The notes under the pieces are model-generated. The model was given only the letters and a program-made list of their open reading frames with translations, was not told the DNA's origin and did not search any database. Shown one piece after another: positions 1,664-51,534 of a DNA stretch of 64,000 nt. The DNA is from Owenia fusiformis. Lineage: Eukaryota > Annelida > Polychaeta > Sabellida > Oweniidae. The DNA lies in contig CAIIXF020000006.1 in assembly GCA_903813345.2 (NCBI GenBank), positions 23,007,936 through 23,071,935 of the forward strand, written 5' to 3'. The translations under genes and the position numbers were made by a program. Each line of letters starts with the position of its first letter. The first letter of the stretch is position 1.

Positions 1664-4600
1664 AATATCCTGGCAAATGTTGACTCCATTCTATATGTGG
1701 ACACAGACATCTTGTTTATGAGGCCCCTGGATGACATCTGGGCATTCTTCGGCAAGTTCAACTCTAGTCAGATAGCCGCCCTGGCCCCAGAGAGTGAGGA
1801 TGCGGCCACAGGGTGGTACAATAGGTTCGCTAGACATCCATTCTATGGAAAGTTAGGTAAAGATTGAGATGATATGTTTTGGGTTATTTCTCTGCAATTA
1901 ATACACATTGGATGTTTTCTTTAAAAAATCATTAGATGGATATAAGGGAAATTTACTATATTAGATAATTGGAAAGAAGCACACTAGATAATTGTTTTAT
2001 TTTGTTTTAAGCTTGAATAATCAATACGTTATTGACTTAGTGTTTAATAAATTATTTTGCAAACACTGTCTCAATCATGATTTTTCAACAGTTTCCCTCT
2101 GTTTGTAAGATTTTCATCACCAGCTTTGTGATGAAATCCAGTCATAAAAACATAAAGATCTTAATATTTTTTAAATAGATTTGTCTGGGATTGTTTATTA
2201 TACTGTTTGCTTCTAGGTGTTAACTCTGGTGTAATGTTGATGAACCTAACTCGCATGAGGATTGTAAACTGGCAGGACTACATACTCCCATACTATAAAC
2301 AGTACAAGTTGAAGATAACATGGGGTGACCAAGATCTCATAAATATATTTTTCCATTATCATCCAGGTAAAATACAATCATTGTTTACTTGGATTATATT
2401 AAACTAAGATCATGTTATTCTAAAGCCATTTTATACTAATACCAAGATCATGTTACACTCAGACCATTTTTAAGACTAGTGAATTAGATCCCTGATTGGA
2501 GCCAAGATAATATAAAGGGTCATTTGTGTTTAAGATGGTCAGAATCATAATTACCCCCTCCACACTTTATACATTTTGTGTAACAAGTGTAATACACTAT
2601 GCTTTCTTGATATCAATTCTGTAGAGGTTTGATAATTACTATTTACTTTATTGCAACTCAGTCAATAATTCCTGGCATTGTTATGATATAATAAGGGAAC
2701 ATAAACTGTCAACATAAAGTATAAACATAAACTATGAATATCAAACATATGAACTTCTGTAGACATAAGACTGGGGACGTGTATTTGAACAATATTCAGA
2801 GATATATCATGTATTTTAAAATGTATGATGTACTGGATCAATTTACTTAAAATTGCTTCAGAATATTCTCAATTTAGAAGAACAAACTACCCCATTTGTA
2901 CTTTGGGGAGAGGGGGAGGGGGTTGGGTCTGTCAGAGATCCCTGAATTACTGAGGCATTTTTAGAACTTTTACTTTATATTGCTTATTAGAGGTCCCTTG
3001 ACCTCATCTTGATAGACCCACCATTGAGTAGGTTTTAGATCATTATAATGTATTGATTTTAAAACATGTAAAGAACAATACGACAATCTATAAATATTAA
3101 CTTTCAACTGAACATTCAAATTCACTAAATGTGCTGACATTTTGAACAAATATGAGGCAAAATGATGAATTATGTATTTGCATCTCTCATACTATGAACG
3201 CCGATAATATCAATAGATTAAAAGATGTTCCTTAAATAATTTTTTCGTATGTCAGAATTTTACTCTAGTTTTCAAATATGTAATCAGATTTTGATAATAC
3301 TGAAATTAAAAATGTTATTAAAGAAAAAGTGACCCTTGAACATATTCTGTCCGGGCTACTTTAAAATGTGCAATAACATATGTCTTTACTTTATAGAAAA
3401 ACTATACATCTATCCCTGTCAGTGGAACTACAGGCCTGACCACTGTATGTACATGAGTGTATGTAAGCTAGCTGAGATGGATGGGGTCTCTGTGCTTCAT
3501 GGGAGCAGAGGTGTCTACCATAATGAGAAACAACCAGCATTTAAAGCAGTGTACACCGCTATGAAACAGGTGAGGAACCTTCCCATGATGCAATTTTTTA
3601 ACAAGGGAGGGGACAGCAGATTTTATTGCCATTTATTTATGCATGGGCTTTTAAGAGAAATCCCATGATTCAATACCCTGCCCACAGTCTTGTTATAAAC
3701 TACCCTCTGCCTAGTACAGACTATTACAGTTTAAGAGCCCTGCCCCCACGCCCAATGCCCTTAACAGTTTGGGTCATAAATCATTTCAAACCTACTGTGC
3801 TGACCTTTTCTCAAACAATCAGCGAGCTGGAAGGAACATGTGTTAAATGCATGGGTGCAATTATGCAATTACTTCAGAGAAAATATATAGAAAGTTGTCC
3901 ATATATTATATAGACAAACTCTGATTAGCTCAGTGAGTTCAGCGATTTATTGAAAACTGAAAGAGTGAAGACGAAGCTCTCTTGAGAGAGAAGCAAAGAA
4001 TGGAAAGGGTAATGATTCATGCGGGTACAGATAACACATGAGGGACCCAATCACCAATGGCATAATTGGTGTCCCTCAATGTAGAATTTGCAGTTACAAA
4101 ACATTGTATATTATTATATGAATGTACCAGTGTTGAACAAGACTAGGGTAATGTTGATCTAACAAATATATGTTGCATTAACAATGCCAAGAAATTTGAA
4201 TTTTTTTTCAAAAACTCATATAAACATGTACAATTGTAAACAAATCCAATCTTAATGTAATATCTCTATACTGAAATAAAAAAAATCAATAAAAAATCAT
4301 AATGCAGTTTTACCGCTAAAGTTATACTTAGGATATTGTTTTAGTGTCATTGCTGCATTATAATTCAGTTTTATTTCTATTTTCACTTCATACAGTATGA
4401 TAAATGTTGAAAATAATATTGACAGAGAGGGGTTAAATATTCTTGATAAATTATTGTTTTATCATAAGTGTTATCTAATACAACAGGATGAAGCAAATGA
4501 TAGTACAACATAAAATCATAACAGTTAACTTAACTGTAATACTTTATTAATAGAGTTATTTATTTTGTAATTTTCGTGTTTTTTCCAGTACACATTTGAT

Positions 4601-5723
4601 GGTGATTATTTATTTTGTAATTTTCGTGTTTTTTCAGTACACATTTGATGGTGATTATTTATTTTGTAATTTTCGGTTTTTCAGTACACATTTGATAGTG
4701 ATTATTTATTTTGTAATTTTCGTTTTTTCAGTACACATTTGATGGTGATTATTTATTTTGTAATTTTTGTTTTTTCAGTGCACATTTGATGGTGATTATT
4801 TATTTTGTAATTTTCGTGTTTTTTCAGTACACATTTGATGGTGATTATTTATTTTGTAATTCTCGTTTTTTCAGTACACATTTGATAGTGATTATTTATT
4901 TTGTAATTTTCGTTTTTTCAGTACACATTTGATGGTGATTATTTATTTTGTAATTTTCGTGTTTTTTCAGTACACATTTGATGGTGATTATTTATTTTGT
5001 CATTTTCGGTTTTTCAGTACACATTTGATAGTGATTATTTATTTTGTAATTTTCGTGTTTTTTCAGTACACATTTGATGGTGATTATTTATTTTGTAATT
5101 TTCGTGTTTTTTCAGTACACATTTGATGGTGATTATTTATTTTGTCATTTTCGGTTTTTCAGTACACATTTGATAGTGATTATTTATTTTGTCATTTTCG
5201 TTTTTTCAGTACACATTTGATGGTGATTATTTATTTTGTCATTTTCGTGTTTTTTCAGTACACATTTGATGGTGATTATTTATTTTGTCATTTTCGGTTT
5301 TTCAGTACACATTTGATGGTGATTATTTATTTTGTCATTTTCGTGTTTTTTCAGTACACATTTGATGGTGATTATTTATTTTGTAATTTTCGGTTTTTCA
5401 GTACACATTTGATGGTGATTATTTATTTTGTAATTTTCGTGTTTTTTCAGTACACATTTGATGGTGATTATTTATTTTGTCATTTTCGTTTTTTCAGTAC
5501 ACATTTGATGGTGATTATTTATTTTGTAATTTCGTTTTTTCAGTACACATTTGATGGTGACTTGAAATCTGACTTAGTAGACAAAGCAAATGCGCTTTTG
5601 ATGGAACCAACATCCAGAGGAACCAATTGTGGAAAAGTATCACAACTATATTTTAAACAATTTCAAAAACATTTACATGATAGAAAAGCACAAGATAATA
5701 GCCAGAAAAAACCACCTTCCTGA
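1664..5723 (+). CDS. GXYLT1: Glucoside xylosyltransferase (GT8 family), 3' part of gene
   Basis: Four exons are joined in phase: 1664-1856, 2217-2366, 3397-3569 and 5544-5723 (stop TGA), giving about 231 C-terminal residues. Family members are roughly 440 aa, so about half is missing to the left. Visible hallmarks are the DxD metal/nucleotide-sugar motif in [46 protein letters not shown] and [15 protein letters not shown]. All are characteristic of GXYLT1/2, which add xylose alpha-1,3 to O-glucose on EGF repeats of Notch in the secretory pathway (established for the family). Choosing between GXYLT1 and GXYLT2 is not possible here. The acceptor of the last exon is the final copy of a 21-fold tandem array of itself (see repeat at 4555-5560). 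Exon assignment is secure. Whether upstream acceptor copies are ever used is unknown. Confidence 0.93.
4555..5560 (+). repeat. 47-49 bp tandem array made of a repeated 3' splice site
   Basis: Twenty-one copies of a unit containing a T-run, CAG, then TACACATTTGATGGTGAT and TATTTATTTTG. The post-CAG positions are 4589, 4638, 4685, 4732, 4779, 4828, 4875, 4922, 4971, 5018, 5067, 5116, 5163, 5210, 5259, 5306, 5355, 5402, 5451, 5498 and 5544. Only the last copy (5544) continues into unique GXYLT coding sequence. Each copy carries a pyrimidine tract plus AG and the first codons (YTFDGD) of the terminal exon. Small variants occur, such as TGCACA at 4779, GATAGTG in some copies and TTTTGTAA versus TTTTGTCA. 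Spacings alternate near 47 and 49 bp, so roughly every second copy is in the exon's frame. Confidence 0.95.
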
Positions 5724-8100
5724 TGTGTTCACATGAACTTAGCTTACTAGGAAACTTGGATGCTAATATTATGTGTATAAAAGTAATATAAGGGATCAAA
5801 TGCTAACATGTAAAAAGTGCAAACGTGTAAACAAAATAATTTAAAAATGTATTTTAGAAGGTACAAATGCTGAGAAAACGAATTGCAATTATGTAGGGAA
5901 ACTGTAGTAGAGATATTTGTTGTTAGTGTAATGCTAATTTAAAAATCGATGAATACAAAACTTTACTATTATTACTTATTAGAAAAGTAACATATGTAAT
6001 AATATGACTCAAATATGTTTCTACCTCAATTGATGTAGTTATACATATTTATACTGTCATATTTAATAGATTTATATTGTCATATATGACATATTTATAA
6101 TGTCACAGCCACCAGTAACATGTTTATACTGTCAAAGGTGACAGATACATGTTGTCATAGGAATATGGTTGTCAATGTCATTGTTTATTTTGTCATAGGA
6201 TTGTGGCAGTGTATTCTGTCATGCTGAAGAACAATTTATTGTAGAGCAAGAAAAGGTGATCACAAACCAGTTTTTTTGTGGCCTCATAAGCAGCAGGCTT
6301 GGCTATTTATGAAACATTTATATAAACAGAAGTAGCAATATATACAATCATTTAATGCATTGTAAATTGTAATATGAGAAACCATGCACTTATGCGAGTT
6401 TTTACATTGGTGATTTATGGTCCAACCAAAAACCAAGCGTAAAGAGGATATTTTATTGTTTACATTAACTCTGTGTAGTACAATATTAATGTACTACAAT
6501 GTGTTCTGTCTGTTTTTCTGTCCGTTTGCCTTATTTAATGTTTTTTTATGTCTCAATGGACTGTATCAGATCATTGATGTCTCTATGTATACTGTATTGC
6601 TGTGGTGTGGATATTGGTCAACTGCTAGGCCTATTATATAAAATCACATTTACTGTATAGTAAAAACTGTCAGGTGGGACATCTCACAAGTGAAAAAGAA
6701 TATTGATTGGCTTCATGTTAATGGGCTTCTGTAAATAACACCTCTCTAAGTGGAACACACTATAGTCCAAAGGTGTTCCACAATAAATCTAGAAGTGGTG
6801 ACATATTGTCATAGTCTCGAACTTATTTGTGGACAGTGTTCAGCAATCGGCATCTGTAACACCATTTGGTGTTTGGCAGCAAATGGCAGGTGGTGAAAAT
6901 TTGTACGTTAAAGCCTTGTTGCAATTCGAATAGGTAGGCCCTGTGATGACCCAAACTGAATGTTTAATAGCTTGACAATTTCAGGGAAATTTTGAATACA
7001 ATATCATTTTGACATCAAATGCGTATTGACTTTCTAGATATACTGTATGAGAAAAATAGTTTACACATACATTGAAATACAGTAATTATTTCCATTGGTT
7101 ATGCACAAGCCTATAAATAATAGAATAATATTATATGGAAGATAGGAAATCAATGAAAAAGTAGCATATACAAACACCTTTTTCTGAACAGAAATAATTT
7201 TACTGAAAATTTTCAAACCACATTCATGGTTCGCAATTTTGTAATTGAAAAATAACAGGCCTATAAAAGTAACAAAAATGTTTTTCATCATAATATAATG
7301 TTAGCAACCATTCTTTCCATTTAGAGAAATTAATAAGAATATGTACATAAGCTGGAAAATTAAATGATCATTCTCAATGAAATGAATAGGTTTAGAAGGG
7401 GCAAAACATCAAAATTGGTCCAAAAATAAAGCTGGAGTTTTTGATTAATAGAAATCCAGAAATTGTTGATTGTTATTTTAATTACCATTGAGTACAAATT
7501 AATGTTAGATGAAAATCGATACAGAAACGATTGTTAAATATTTTTTAATTACATAAAGTGTGTACTTCATTAGATACAGTTATTGAGTTCAGAATTAATC
7601 CTATGTATGTACTCTTTATATTTATTGGAACTTTACATTTATAAGCTGCTGTAATACATGTACAATTAACATATTAATATGCATATCCATTATCCATTAA
7701 CTAATGCTTCTTTATTAATGTACATGTACGGTATGTAATGTACGTACATATATACTGAATTATTAGAATCGACCCTATAATTACATAGAGTTACATGTAC
7801 ATGTTGATGCCATGCACAGATAGACCCCTAAGTCTCATTCTGCCCATATTAAACCTTCTGTACTTGTCTGACATTAACTTTTATTTTGCCATTTCATGTA
7901 AATGAGAATGTTCTTCATAAGAATTTGTAAGGCAGTAATCTTTCCAGCATTGAAGTAACCGAGAGAATCATTCAGTTTAGAGTTTAAAAATTATCATCCA
8001 CCGTGTTAATTCACCCAGTTGAAAATATAATATACCCAGGGTATATTAGGGTTCATCAGTTACATTGTACCTTGATAAAAATCTACTTGCATCCACTTGA
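5724..8100. other. GXYLT 3' UTR/flank and intergenic AT-rich DNA
   Basis: No coding exon was recognised. The first part probably includes the GXYLT 3' UTR, and an AATAAA lies near 6783. Around 6060-6230 there are several degenerate copies of a short 'tgtcatat / tactgtca' phrase. A copy of the dispersed 'gtggtgaca' repeat sits at about 6787-6930. The small open frames here lack codon structure or family similarity. Confidence 0.5.
6787..6930 (+). repeat. Dispersed 'gtggtgacat ... ggcaggtggtgac' repeat, copy 1
   Basis: The segment reads gtggtgacatattgtcatag, then a variable middle with 'gtgtttggcag', then 'aatggcaggtggtga' and 'ttaaagccttgtt'. The same layout recurs on + at 10005-10133 and, truncated, at 19635-19705. 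It recurs on - at 28078-28235, 29845-29940, 36838-36955 and 37390-37490. It behaves like a short dispersed element, perhaps a MITE or SINE fragment. The class is unknown. Confidence 0.65.
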
Positions 8101-14378: not shown

Positions 14379-17300
14379 ATGAGCTCAGAGCCTGTTGCTA
14401 AGAAACTGTGCACCATGAAGAAGATAGGGACGCATAATGGTACATTTCACTGTGATGAGGTACTAGCCTGCTTCCTACTAAAACAGCTGCCAGAATATAC
14501 AGACGCTGAAATAATTAGGTAAAGTCTTCATCAAATAATTCTCGAATCACATCCTCGATTATATATTGTGTATTTTCTTTTTTCTTACTATAAATGTCAC
14601 ATTTCAGTTTATGTCAATGTAATCTCTCTTATTCTAGAAAGGTACAGCTTTTGGATTGAATAAATGTACATATTTTTCATTTAAGTTATGACTTATACCT
14701 GTATCATGTCAGTGTCAATATTAAACCAATAATTTTTTTTACTAGCCAAGAGAAATATTTCCATTATAGGTTCATTCGAAACAACTTCCTCTAGAATAAA
14801 CTCTAGCAAATCAAAAGTCAATCAAATATTAATCTGAACAAACTTTTTCAGGACACGTGATCCAGGGACCCTAGATACATGTGATATAGTTGTAGATGTT
14901 GGAGGAGTATTTGATCCTGAGAAACACAGATATGACCATCACCAAAGGTGAGAGTGTGCCAAAACCTGTATTTGTGAATATAACACATCTATATAAAGTA
15001 AACATCTGTCCCTAGTGAACACCTCTGTTTAAAGTTAGCACCTGTCCATAGTGAACACCTTTATTTCAAGTAAACACCTGTCCCCTATGAACACCTATGT
15101 TTGAAGTTAATACCTGTCCCTAGTAAACATCTCTATTTAAAGTAAACAGCTGTCCCCAATGAACACCTATGTTTGAAGTTAATACCTGTCCCTAGTAAAC
15201 ATCTCTTTTTAAAGTAAACAGCTGTCCCCAATGAACACCTATGTTTGAAGTAAACATCTGCCCCTAGTAAACACCTCTGTTTAAAGTAAACATCTGTCCC
15301 TAGTGAACACCTCTGTTTGATGTAAACACCTGTCCCCTATGAAGACCTATGTTTGAAGTAAACATCTGCCCCTAGTAAACACCTCTGTTTAAAGTAAACA
15401 CATTTCCCAATAAATACGTCTGTTTGAAGTAAACATCTGTCCCTAGTGAACACCTATGTTTGAAGTAAACATCTGTCCCTAGTGGACACCTCTGTTTGAA
15501 GTAAACACATGTTTCTTGTGAACACCTCTGTTTGAAGTAAACATCTGTCCCTAGTGAACACCTCTGTTTGAAGTAAACATCTGTCCCTAGTGAACACCTC
15601 TGTTTGAAGTAAACATCTGTCCCTAGTGGACACCTTTGTTTAAAGTGTCCCTAGTGAACACCTCTGTTTGAAGTAAACACATGTTTCTTGTGAACACCTC
15701 TGTTTGAAGTAAACATCTGTCCCTAGTGGACACCTCTGTTTAAAGTGTCCCTAGTGAACACCTCTGTTTGAAGTAAACACATGTGTCTTGTGAACACCTC
15801 TGTTTAAAGTAAACACATGTTTCTTGTGAACACCTTTGTTTGAAGTAAATACCTGTCTCCGAGAGAGTAAACACCTCTGTTTGAAGTAAACGATCTGTCC
15901 CTAGTGAACACCTCTGTTTGAAGTAAACACCTTCTTAGAACATACACCATTGACATTGTAGTGGATTACAATTATGTTCTTCATATTTCCAGAACATTCA
16001 GTGAAAATATGCACAGTCTACGACCAGAGAAAAAATGGGTAACCAAACTGAGTAGTGCAGGTCTAGTATACCTCCATTTTGGTGAAAGAATCATTGCAAA
16101 ATTAATCGCAAAAACAGTTGATGATGACATCACAAAGACAATATATGATAAGGTATATGAACAGTTTGTTGAAGAGATTGATGCTGTGGATAATGGCGTG
16201 TCACAGACAGATGGTGAATCTAGGTACCATATAACTACAACCCTAAGCTCTAGAGTCGCTAATCTCAACCCAGCTTGGAATGAGAATAACGTAAATGTAC
16301 AGGTAAGAGAAAAGCTATTAAGGTAGGGCTAGTGGCAGAATTTTCAAGTCATTAGATTTCAGTAAGCATGGGAAAAGTTCAGAATACTCATTCTGTTTGG
16401 TCTACCTTAAAGTATCAATTTGAAAACTTGGCAGAACAGAAATTTGAATGTGACAAAAATTGCATTTATTAAAATTATCTTGTTTGGACAAATAATTCGT
16501 CTAACCATCGTTTCTGTAATGTAATTTGAAAAGTTTTGGAAAACACTGTAACTGTGACATCATATAAAAAATTACAATTAATAAGTCATATGTATTTATA
16601 TTATTTATTTGTTTATTTATTAGGCCCAATTTGAGAAGGCAATGCAGCTGGTAGGAGGAGAGTTCAAAGACAGAGTGAACTATTTCACCAACTCTTGGTG
16701 GCCTGCTAGAACACTAGTCGTAGAAGCATTCAGCAAGCGCCAAGAGGTAGATGTGATTATCAAATATATATCAAGAGGTTTTGAGGAAAAAATGTTGGCA
16801 AGTTGTAAGTTTTGCGTGAATGAACCATAAGTCCAAAAATTACCATATGAACTGCTCGTTCCAAAATTGTTGTTGGTTTAAGGGAAACCACCTCACCACG
16901 TAAGCCAAGTATCCAAGAAATTCTTTTAATTTCTTATTTCAAATTCTCAATATGTACTTTCTGAAATGGCCTTGGCTATTGAATAATGCAAAAATTGCAT
17001 AACCTGAACATTATCAATCACTTTTTAAACTTAATGTTGTTTAACACTTCCATGTTAGGTTAGAGTGCTAGTAACCATTACCAATGAAATATGAAAGGTC
17101 ATTCCCTGGAATACATTTGTAGTAATAAAAATCACATTTAAGATTTAAAAGTTCAAATATCATTTTAATTTCACCCATCAACATGAATCATCCCAACACA
17201 GTCAACTAGCACCATTTAGTGAAGTGATTTCTATAATTTACTAAAAACATTTTATTAGATAAATCAATTAAATAGGAATTTTTATTTTTCCATTATCGTT

Positions 17301-24200: not shown

Positions 24201-27200
24201 TTTTTCACCATGCTGAGCATTTTTCATTCTGAGCATTTTTGGGCCAAAGTTGTCAAAAATGAACCTCCCTGGAATTTTTAAAAAGTGAACACTCCCTTGG
24301 CAAATCCTGGCTACAGATCTGGGGTATAACTTCATTGTAACTTTGTCTTAACAGGTAACAGGAGAGGCAGTACCTGACGGACACCCAATGCTGAACAAAG
24401 CCATTGACTGGGACAGACTCGATGGAGAGCTTAGTCAAGATATAACACTTTTTTTGCCTGGAATGGACAAATTAGCATTTTTACTTAGTGGAAAGTTAAA
24501 GGATTATGCTGGCATCTTGGAATTTTTCATTGAACACTGGAGAAGTTACGAGGTAAATATACAGTACTGTTAGTGTACTAGTCTATTTTATTAATCAAAC
24601 TTTTGCACACAGTAAAAAGTGTGAGCAATTGGGTGAATGAAATATTACCTTTAAATCATGCAAACATAACATATCATTGCAGTGGACATTACCTATAAGA
24701 ACTTATGAAAATAAGGGTAGAATGGAATTCCAGATTTATTTTTATATAATATGAATCTTTATTAAGTATATTTTCAATAAATCACAAAAACAATATGGAA
24801 AATATGGTAAAAAGTTGTTTTTACATTGATTCCTAACATGTCTCCTATTTACTCTTAGAGTGTTTAATTTAGCAAAGCCTTGATTAAAATCTTGAGTTTT
24901 GTGGACACACTTCATTTAACTTAAAGCAGATATGAAATGGTATTTTTAACCTAAAGGAATCAATATAATTTTTTGATAAATGTATTTGGACATGTTTTCT
25001 CATCAGTAGTGTGAAAACTATTTCACTCTAACAATCGTTATAGCTGCTTGATAAGCAATATTCGAATTGGTTGTGACGTTATTGGCCCCCACGTGATCTC
25101 TCACTGGTCCCCACGTGGCCCGTTTTGGTCCATTAGATCATGACGTCATAATGCCAAAATGTTTTGTTATTTGTTTACACGTTGTGATTACTATGGAACC
25201 AATAAACCAAAGCTATATTTTGTATATGACGTTACTAATCACGTGGGGGCCAATTTGATTTATCAGTTAGTTTTATTTCGTTATCTATGACCGTTAGCAG
25301 TTATCTAACATTTATTTTATAATGGGTATCGCAAGAACTCTACGATGGGCTTACAATGGAGAAAACCGCATTTTCGTAGCTGCAAGTTGAGAAAAGCTAT
25401 TTCAGTTGTGCTTTAATTGTATCTACCAAGCTTTGCTTCATTTGCAAATCTTTTTACAAGTGTTTTACATTTATTGACATACTTTTTGAACTGAACTGAA
25501 CTAACTTGAGGGAGGGGGGAATCTGAATATGATTATCTATACATGTATTTTAAAAGAAAACAATTACCAGGTCTCATATTCACCAACTGTTCCAGGCGAC
25601 CTATGATAAGGAGAACATGAGAGGACTCTATGATGTCATATACAAGGCATATCTCGAATCTGAGACAGATGAAGAGGGAATCAAGATCTCATACAACAAT
25701 GTGAAGTACCTCATGTTTGAGTTATATGGTGCAGGTATGTAAATCAATTCTTGCTTTTCAATACAATTATGTCTGCTTGATTGTTTCAAAACAAACTCAA
25801 TCCTTCACCTTTCTTTATTACTCTGTAAACTATGTCTTGAAGTGATGGTTTATGATGTCATGGATTGCTATATTTTTCATGTGTCTTAAAGTGATGGTTT
25901 ATGATGTCATGGATTGCTATATTTTTCATGTGTCTTGAAGTGATGGTTTATGATGTCATGGATTGCTATATTTTTCATGTGTCTTGAAGTGATGGTTTAT
26001 GATGTCATGGATTGCTATATTTTTCATGTGTCTTAAAGTGATGGTTTATGATGTCATGGATTGCTATATTTTTCATGTGTCTTAAAGTGATGGTTTATGA
26101 TGTCATGGATTGCTACATTTTTCATGTGGTTTCCTGTAGGTATCACCACAACACACAAATCAATCTATGCATTTGTTCACATGATGGTGACCCACCCTGA
26201 CCTACAGAAGAGAATCCAAGCCCAAATTGATGATGTTATCGGTTCCCAGCGAACCCCAACGACGGCAGACAAACATAAGCTCCCTCTATTAGAGGCAACG
26301 ATACATGAAACGTTGAGGTATATATCTCATCTTCCCTTCGCTCTTCCCCATGAAACGAAAAAAGAGACAAGTCTAGGAGGGTATGCCCTACCAAACAAGA
26401 CACAGGTAATTGTTTCTTCTTTTATAATAAAATTATAGGTCAAATGCTAGAGAGGGGAGTCTTAAATAATATTTCATATTTTCCATGTATCAATCCCTTC
26501 ATATATTTATTTGAATTTGTCAGGAAAGTTTTTTATATGATAACGTGCATGTTTACTTACCATTTAATTCTATTTATTCCTAGGTTTGGCCATTACTATC
26601 TGGCAACCATCACAACCCTAAGTACTTCAAAGACCCCTTGAGCTTCAACCCTGACAGGTTCCTAGAGAATGATGGCTCTCTATCACCTGCTAGCTCAAGG
26701 AGAATGTAAGTGACTCTATCATTGTTGTCAGATTTGGGTTCTTATTCTAGCTCGTTTCTAAAAGTTTTTTAAAAGTTAAACGCCTAAATAAATTTCATAA
26801 TACTCAATCACTCAATACAACCTAGATGTGATTACTCACAAATGTATACTTTAAACGTCTTGTTTTCAATACTTTGTTTTCTGGAAGTATGGTAAGCCAT
26901 ATTGTAACTAAATAACTCAATAAATTCTCATCTTATACGCTTTAATATTATGGTGTCAATATATAAGACTAAAATAGATTGAGACTTTGAACTATCAAGT
27001 ATTAAATTTTTGTTTCATTTTGAAGGTTGACACCATTTGGAGCAGGGACAAGGAACTGCATTGGGGAGGTATTTGCCAGGACGAGGCTGTTTTTATTCAC
27101 TTCGAGCCTGTTGCAACGATTCACACTCCTTCAACCAACTGAAGGAAAGCTTAATGTTCTTGATCCAAAAAGTGAGGATTATCTCAAGAAGATTCCGTGT

Positions 27201-34181: not shown

Positions 34182-51534
<17,353 letters not shown>

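Follow-up and report, generated by a model that had tools for sequence, protein, structure and literature searches.

A 21-copy splice-acceptor array in an annelid glycosyltransferase-8 gene and the clustering of tandem arrays at splice junctions

In the polychaete annelid Owenia fusiformis, the last exon of a glycosyltransferase-8 gene is preceded by a tandem array in which its own 3' splice site is repeated 21 times. The array lies in a 64,000-nucleotide stretch of contig CAIIXF020000006.1 (hereafter the window, from whose first base positions are counted). The genome has three above-threshold matches to Pfam Eryth_link_C, an annelid haemoglobin-linker family, whereas a search for mitochondrial COX1 gave no match. 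By its structure, a minisatellite-like tandem unit spanning an intron-exon boundary, it is a mirage, of a kind already described in cephalochordates. A survey of three motor-protein families shows that tandem arrays in these families tend to form, or to be retained, at exon-intron junctions, donors as well as acceptors, and this clustering is the surprising part. The terminal-exon array itself is probably a neutral minisatellite that spans the junction, with splicing mostly at the authentic, exon-proximal site and the extra copies (decoys) mostly silent.

The terminal-exon array and its gene

The penultimate coding exon (3397..3569, forward strand, like all features of this gene given here) ends in ATGAAACAG/GTGAGG, where the slash marks the splice site. 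It was identified from the sequence, from a protein match in the same genome and from the Pfam match of the joined exons to Glyco_transf_8 (PF01501, E 1.6e-9), which bears out an initial annotation of this DNA that had described an array of acceptors ahead of the last exon of a glycosyltransferase gene. Among solved structures, the joined exons gave six matches, with LARGE1 at the top and XXYLT1 also present. We take the gene to be GXYLT-like, a name that comes from the initial annotation. The unique part of the last intron (3570..4555) contains four yTnAy branch-point-like words 38-60 nt upstream of the first acceptor copy. The coding part of the terminal exon (5544..5723) follows the authentic acceptor directly and ends with KKPPS; it is supported by a protein match and by a paralogue whose last exon starts at the corresponding place.

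Tandem Repeats Finder (TRF) called the array at 4556-5560, with period 47, 21.0 copies and 94% matches. Exact decomposition into units of 46-49 bp placed the acceptors at 4589, 4638, 4685, 4732, 4779, 4828, 4875, 4922, 4971, 5018, 5067, 5116, 5163, 5210, 5259, 5306, 5355, 5402, 5451, 5498 and 5544. The 21-fold repetition first annotated is confirmed by both methods; the annotated spacing of 47-49 bp is correct for all units but the last, which is 46 bp, the others being 47 or 49 bp. An array of 1 kb with 94% identity is no chance match. Each unit combines a pyrimidine-rich tract with CAG and the initial 17 nt of the terminal exon, which read TACACATTTGATGGTGA or differ from it by one base. The CAG is retained in 21/21 acceptor copies and the AG is intact in all 20 decoys, while the units vary in tract type (CGTGTTTTTTCAG, CGTTTTTTCAG or CGGTTTTTCAG) and by a few substitutions. 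The last copy, at 5544, runs on into the coding exon up to the stop codon at 5721-5723.

From 5163 onward, 47- and 49-bp units alternate to form 96-bp dimers, the last pair being 47+46. Because of this alternation, the decoys at 5163, 5259, 5355 and 5451 (numbers 13, 15, 17 and 19) share the frame of the terminal exon and stay open as far as the stop at 5721, and their use would add 127, 95, 63 or 31 residues, as the initial annotation had it; the open stretch from decoy 13 to the terminal exon (5163..5543) comprises 127 codons. The other copies had all been described as frameshifting. This holds for 11 of them, among them copy 1, whose exon-start fragment (4589..4605, acceptor TTTTTTCCAG) is out of frame and meets a stop after 19 codons, but the decoys at 4638, 4779, 4875, 4971 and 5067 are in frame by distance and run into a stop inside the array.

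Array copy number is error-prone in assemblies, and the amphioxus BflGb6 array seemed aberrantly assembled in the draft genome, according to the accessible text of PMC3087553, so that a collapsed or inflated repeat has to be considered here. The copies, however, carry distinct variants and fall into period classes, the flanks are unique with one listed match in the genome, and many junctions carry arrays of different units. An assembly artefact is therefore highly improbable. Apart from the array itself, the DNA search listed no match in the genome, and thus no transposon origin and no other copies of the unit; this search passes over simple repeats and common words.

The paralogue lies on contig C1. 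Its last exon, found by eye, starts at the corresponding place behind a single acceptor, TTTTCAG/TACAAGTTTGGC. For this reason the array looks derived and the intron position appears to be older than the array. The array would have originated when a tandem duplication took in the last exon's 3' splice junction, with roughly 30 nt from the end of the intron and 17 nt of exon, and growth to 21 copies may have proceeded by unequal exchange or slippage, partly as 96-bp (47+49) dimers. The authentic acceptor would then be the 3'-most copy, joined to the terminal coding exon. Of the eight matches listed by a protein search of the same genome, four fall within the gene, three in the exon-split paralogue and one in a further stretch of C1 that matches residues 2-127 (E 1.4e-9). 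No retrocopy of a spliced mRNA, which would show the junction used, was seen among the seven matches in these two genes.

Further acceptor arrays occur in the same gene and in its paralogue. Upstream in the gene, a second array (L001 3734-6069; G000:C6:23000936-23007935) has a unit of about 119 bp and 20 copies, namely 19 decoys and the authentic copy of TTTTACAG/CTTGATGCATGG. Its unit spans TTTTACAG/CTTGATGCATGGCC, and in several decoys GGCTAGATGG replaces GGCCAGATGG. A third array lies at another exon of the paralogue (L002 5006-6013, minus strand; G000:C1:51622500-51630500) and has a 26-bp unit; its word ATTTCAG/CTGTGAACAC was found by matching in 35 decoys and the authentic copy, while TRF gave 39.2 copies. 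The L001 stretch also holds two arrays, at 886-1945 and 2609-3377, that have a unit of about 166 bp (GCACCCATTTTGGTGGCCATCTTGG...) in opposite orientation.

Arrays at splice junctions of motor-protein genes

We surveyed three unrelated families, whose loci were located by Pfam matches to exons: Myosin_head (12 loci with 56 of the 92 matches listed), dynein DHC_N2 (18 loci, 79 of 80) and kinesin (15 loci, 61 of 144). Together the 45 loci cover 173,845 bp and 196 exon matches (197 entered the founder-unit placement test described below). Arrays were called by TRF, merged, and scored if they had a period of at least 15 and at least 2.5 copies, which yielded 29 merged arrays. By our reading, 16/29 contain a splice junction with its AG or GT, and 10/45 loci have at least one such array. 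The array before the terminal exon had been annotated as unusual; within this genome it is not, since junction-containing arrays occur in the same gene, in the paralogue and in these 10 loci.

Arrays at donors were found in L004 (34 bp), L009 (83 bp), L010 (41 bp), L029 (59 bp), L039 (91 bp) and L043 (39 and 57 bp), and at acceptors in L009 (91 and 260 bp), L022 (87 bp), L031 (71 bp), L033 (42 and 93 bp), L043 (76 and 154 bp) and L046 (87 bp). The 39-bp unit of L043 begins at the donor GT and includes zero exon bases, and the authentic copy of the 93-bp array in L033 lies beyond the end of the fetched sequence. Three mirages with fewer than 2.5 copies (L024 1498-1592, L030 2433-2679 and L031 1393-1483) stand outside the 16; with them, our reading gives 19 junction arrays, 10 at acceptors and 9 at donors. 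The donor mirages of the dynein paralogues L024 (39 bp) and L030 (121 bp) follow the same exon end (GAGCAACAG/GT) with different units, and the shared junction may therefore have been hit twice.

In the placement null, each array was a founder unit of one period placed at a random position, with junctions as dense as in the surveyed loci; ten settings allowed for 0-100 missed exons, with coding bases in or out. The expectation was 3.5-6.9 junction-containing arrays against the 16/29 observed (P 9e-5 to 5e-9). When a locus was allowed only one mirage and one other array, 10/21 contained a junction versus 2.9 expected (P 1.4e-4). Pfam edges alone, which do not depend on our reading, gave a similar picture: 13/29 arrays overlap an edge (4.1 expected) and 21/29 lie no more than 50 bp from one (8.0 expected), and 0/5000 random placements reached the observed edge counts. 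Positions near exons thus seem favoured even for arrays that contain no junction. Arrays of at least 2.5 copies enclose about 4% of the sampled junctions (16 of roughly 392-474).

Two points count against this reading. Five of the 16 junction arrays (two in L009, those of L010 and L043 at 41 and 39 bp, and the 93-bp array of L033) overlap no listed Pfam match, their exons having been recognized by open frame, splice signals and what is generally known of the family; and 2 of the 13 edge-overlapping arrays (in L017 and L045) were judged not to be mirages. It could also be that intronic arrays lie near exons merely because introns are short, with no link to junctions. The myosin and kinesin loci were indeed picked as compact clusters, and several arrays of the window abut acceptors without containing them. 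As nulls with the loci's own density of junctions fall well short of both the 13/29 and the 16/29, we regard short introns as an unlikely explanation.

We infer that the tendency of arrays to lie at junctions extends genome-wide. Its cause may be break- or slippage-prone exon borders, or slower loss of arrays in which one unit is under selection. A broader proposal, which we put forward tentatively and hold to be somewhat less probable than its negation, is that a mutational process of this lineage makes tandem duplications preferentially at junctions, that splicing tolerates up to dozens of intact decoys, and that the arrays supply new introns and exons.

Thirteen survey arrays of at least 2.5 copies were rejected as mirages, only some of them read base by base: L004 111-240 and 4133-4220, L005 2339-2514, L017 7-221 and 2731-2775, L018 1868-1918, L022 6000-6134 (perhaps a degenerate mirage), L025 483-616, L030 389-443, L031 2988-3172, L041 3605-3651, L045 377-465 and L047 112-182. 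Those of L005, L018 and L025, together with L004 111-240, L017 2731-2775, L030 389-443 and L031 2988-3172, were judged by position and unit; in L017 7-221 and L045 the AG lies outside the repeat. L034 2669-2762, seemingly an old donor mirage whose decoys are dead, was left out of the count.

Two further motor-protein loci were noted. A kinesin gene picked for its array, and kept outside the survey counts, has about 18 near-identical 159-bp copies of an acceptor plus some 125-130 nt of exon (L048 146-2989, minus strand; G000:C2:23266200-23270000). On the minus strand of G000:C9:37986009-37994334, a single myosin-head exon (profile positions ~18-84) is present in about 12 tandem copies, which resemble, by their profile matches only, a cluster of mutually exclusive exons.

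Genes elsewhere in the window were sought by Pfam searches with 100 of 207 open frames (at least 55 codons, beyond base 6000 and not inside arrays), 20 of which were rerun singly. Minisatellites at 25833-26128, 34956-35061 and 35859-36179 lie shortly upstream of P450 and sorting-nexin acceptors and do not include the AG. As these three and the array at 14982-15932 stop short of the acceptor, they were not accepted as mirages. An array also lies near a MYG1 exon, less close than in the P450 and sorting-nexin cases. The array at 44448-44950, with a 55-bp unit repeated 9 times, carries TTTTCAG and has TTTTCAGG in its units, with no adjoining exon recognized. The arrays at 14982-15932 and at L018 1868-1918, on different contigs, have a ACCTGTCYCTAGTGAAC-like core in common, which suggests a dispersed minisatellite family.

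Decoy state and splice-site choice

For the terminal exon, the initial annotation had offered length variants, buffering or neutrality, and our results favour the last. Most mRNAs would probably be spliced at 5544, the 20 decoys being removed with the intron, probably because the acceptor closest to the exon body and polyadenylation site would be favoured by terminal-exon definition, by analogy with amphioxus. Decoys in frequent use might favour units whose length is a multiple of three, and no such bias was seen: modal unit lengths are divisible by three in 7/22 arrays, as are the distances from decoy to authentic site for 51/145 decoys, both near one third. The absence of this bias speaks for neutrality.

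Several observations pull the other way. Decoys look usable rather than dying. In 19 arrays, 135/145 decoys are intact, and their AG or GT dinucleotides are kept at 278/290 positions (95.9%) versus 3130/3501 (89.4%) of neighbouring positions, although the matching missed decoys that differ from the junction word by more than 36%. Signal losses were seen in 7/35 decoys of the paralogue array, 1/19 in L001 and 2/2 in L024. Since copies within an array are not independent, we do not read this retention as selection. In addition, in the five units, out of 20, for which they were listed, yTnAy words (two per unit) stand 22-38 nt before the next AG; a single unit could therefore act as a complete acceptor, with the caveat that such words are too loose to decide usage. 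Finally, the array has four open in-frame decoys, more than the mean of 0.36 obtained by shuffling the order of its units (P 0.007), or of 0.78 when the last unit is kept in place (P 0.009). This excess leans against pure neutrality and selection is possible, but it follows from the 47/49 (96-bp) dimer order and no selection is needed to produce it.

These observations bear most directly on the proposal that the array is a functional multi-acceptor module, in which 5163, 5259, 5355 and 5451 would serve as acceptors at regulated levels and add repeated segments near the C-terminus, or the other copies would truncate the protein. All 21 AGs are intact, as such a module would have them, and in-frame decoys are in excess. 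Premature stops in a last exon may escape nonsense-mediated decay, and the truncating mRNAs, whose stops lie in the last exon, might thus be spared. The in-frame extensions, on the other hand, would consist of strongly hydrophobic repeats (maximal hydropathy over 19 residues of 2.06 versus 0.03 for the authentic tail), unit lengths show no preference for multiples of three, and unrelated genes share the structure, at donors too. We consider a functional module unlikely. Even less plausible is that the copies are kept as protection against mutation of the authentic acceptor. The slightly better retention of decoy signals than of neighbouring positions would agree with such buffering, but only 4/20 decoys restore an open in-frame product, the copies of the array are not independent, and an unstable array would raise the risk rather than provide safety. 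A neutral array spanning the junction, with mostly silent decoys, remains our preferred reading.

Known systems and significance

Mirages were named in amphioxus, where the accessible texts describe minisatellite-like tandem duplications of intron-exon boundaries in Adh3, the globins BflGb6 and BflGb9, and TnC (PMC3087553; PMC3902484), and similar imperfect repeats in PGBD5 (PMC3902484). Regular splicing over the arrays is suggested by Adh3 data and globin reverse transcription PCR (PMC3087553); it is likewise stated for Adh and TnC and suggested for PGBD5 (PMC3902484). Units within an amphioxus array evolve in concert (PMC3087553; PMC3902484). As in those genes, 3' and 5' boundaries are duplicated here and many copies carry the AG or GT (PMC3087553; PMC3902484). 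Length instability, between alleles or somatic, is a further trait of the type; for our array, one assembly was available for comparison and listed one match for the locus. The host in our case is an annelid and not a cephalochordate, and 21 units of 46-49 bp precede the terminal exon, whereas BflGb6 of amphioxus is reported to have 6 and 3 units, each 150-160 bp long. Unlike in amphioxus, a frequency in a sample of genes was measured (10/45 loci).

In the human gene IFI6 (6-16, G1P3), minisatellite units are splice donors and allow three mRNA species, according to PMC4526556; PMC2572611 and PMC4526556 cite Turri et al. 1995 on this minisatellite. There too a minisatellite overlapping a splice site offers several sites, whose use in our array is putative; unlike in IFI6, the terminal-exon repeat spans an acceptor and not a donor. 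Zhuo et al. 2007 and Gao and Lynch 2009, as cited in PMC3087553, proposed tandem or internal duplication as material for new introns. Duplication as raw material is common to both cases, whereas a new intron or exon is not shown for our array. In earthworm metallothionein genes, intronic minisatellites occur and a duplicated exon 4 is missing from transcripts (PMC12783039); these are annelid repeats and exon copies as well, but the accessible text describes no duplicated splice junctions in the form of tandem minisatellites. A literature search of partial coverage found neither an annelid case nor a genome-scale account of junction arrays, and no measured excess at junctions.

With 20 equivalent acceptors set against one real site, the array is a natural setting in which to study the choice of the spliceosome between equal signals. 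If the frequency in the three sampled families held genome-wide, there would be thousands of such natural experiments in this genome. If the clustering is true, tandem duplication is drawn to splice junctions or kept there, which would bear on the origin of introns and alternative exons.

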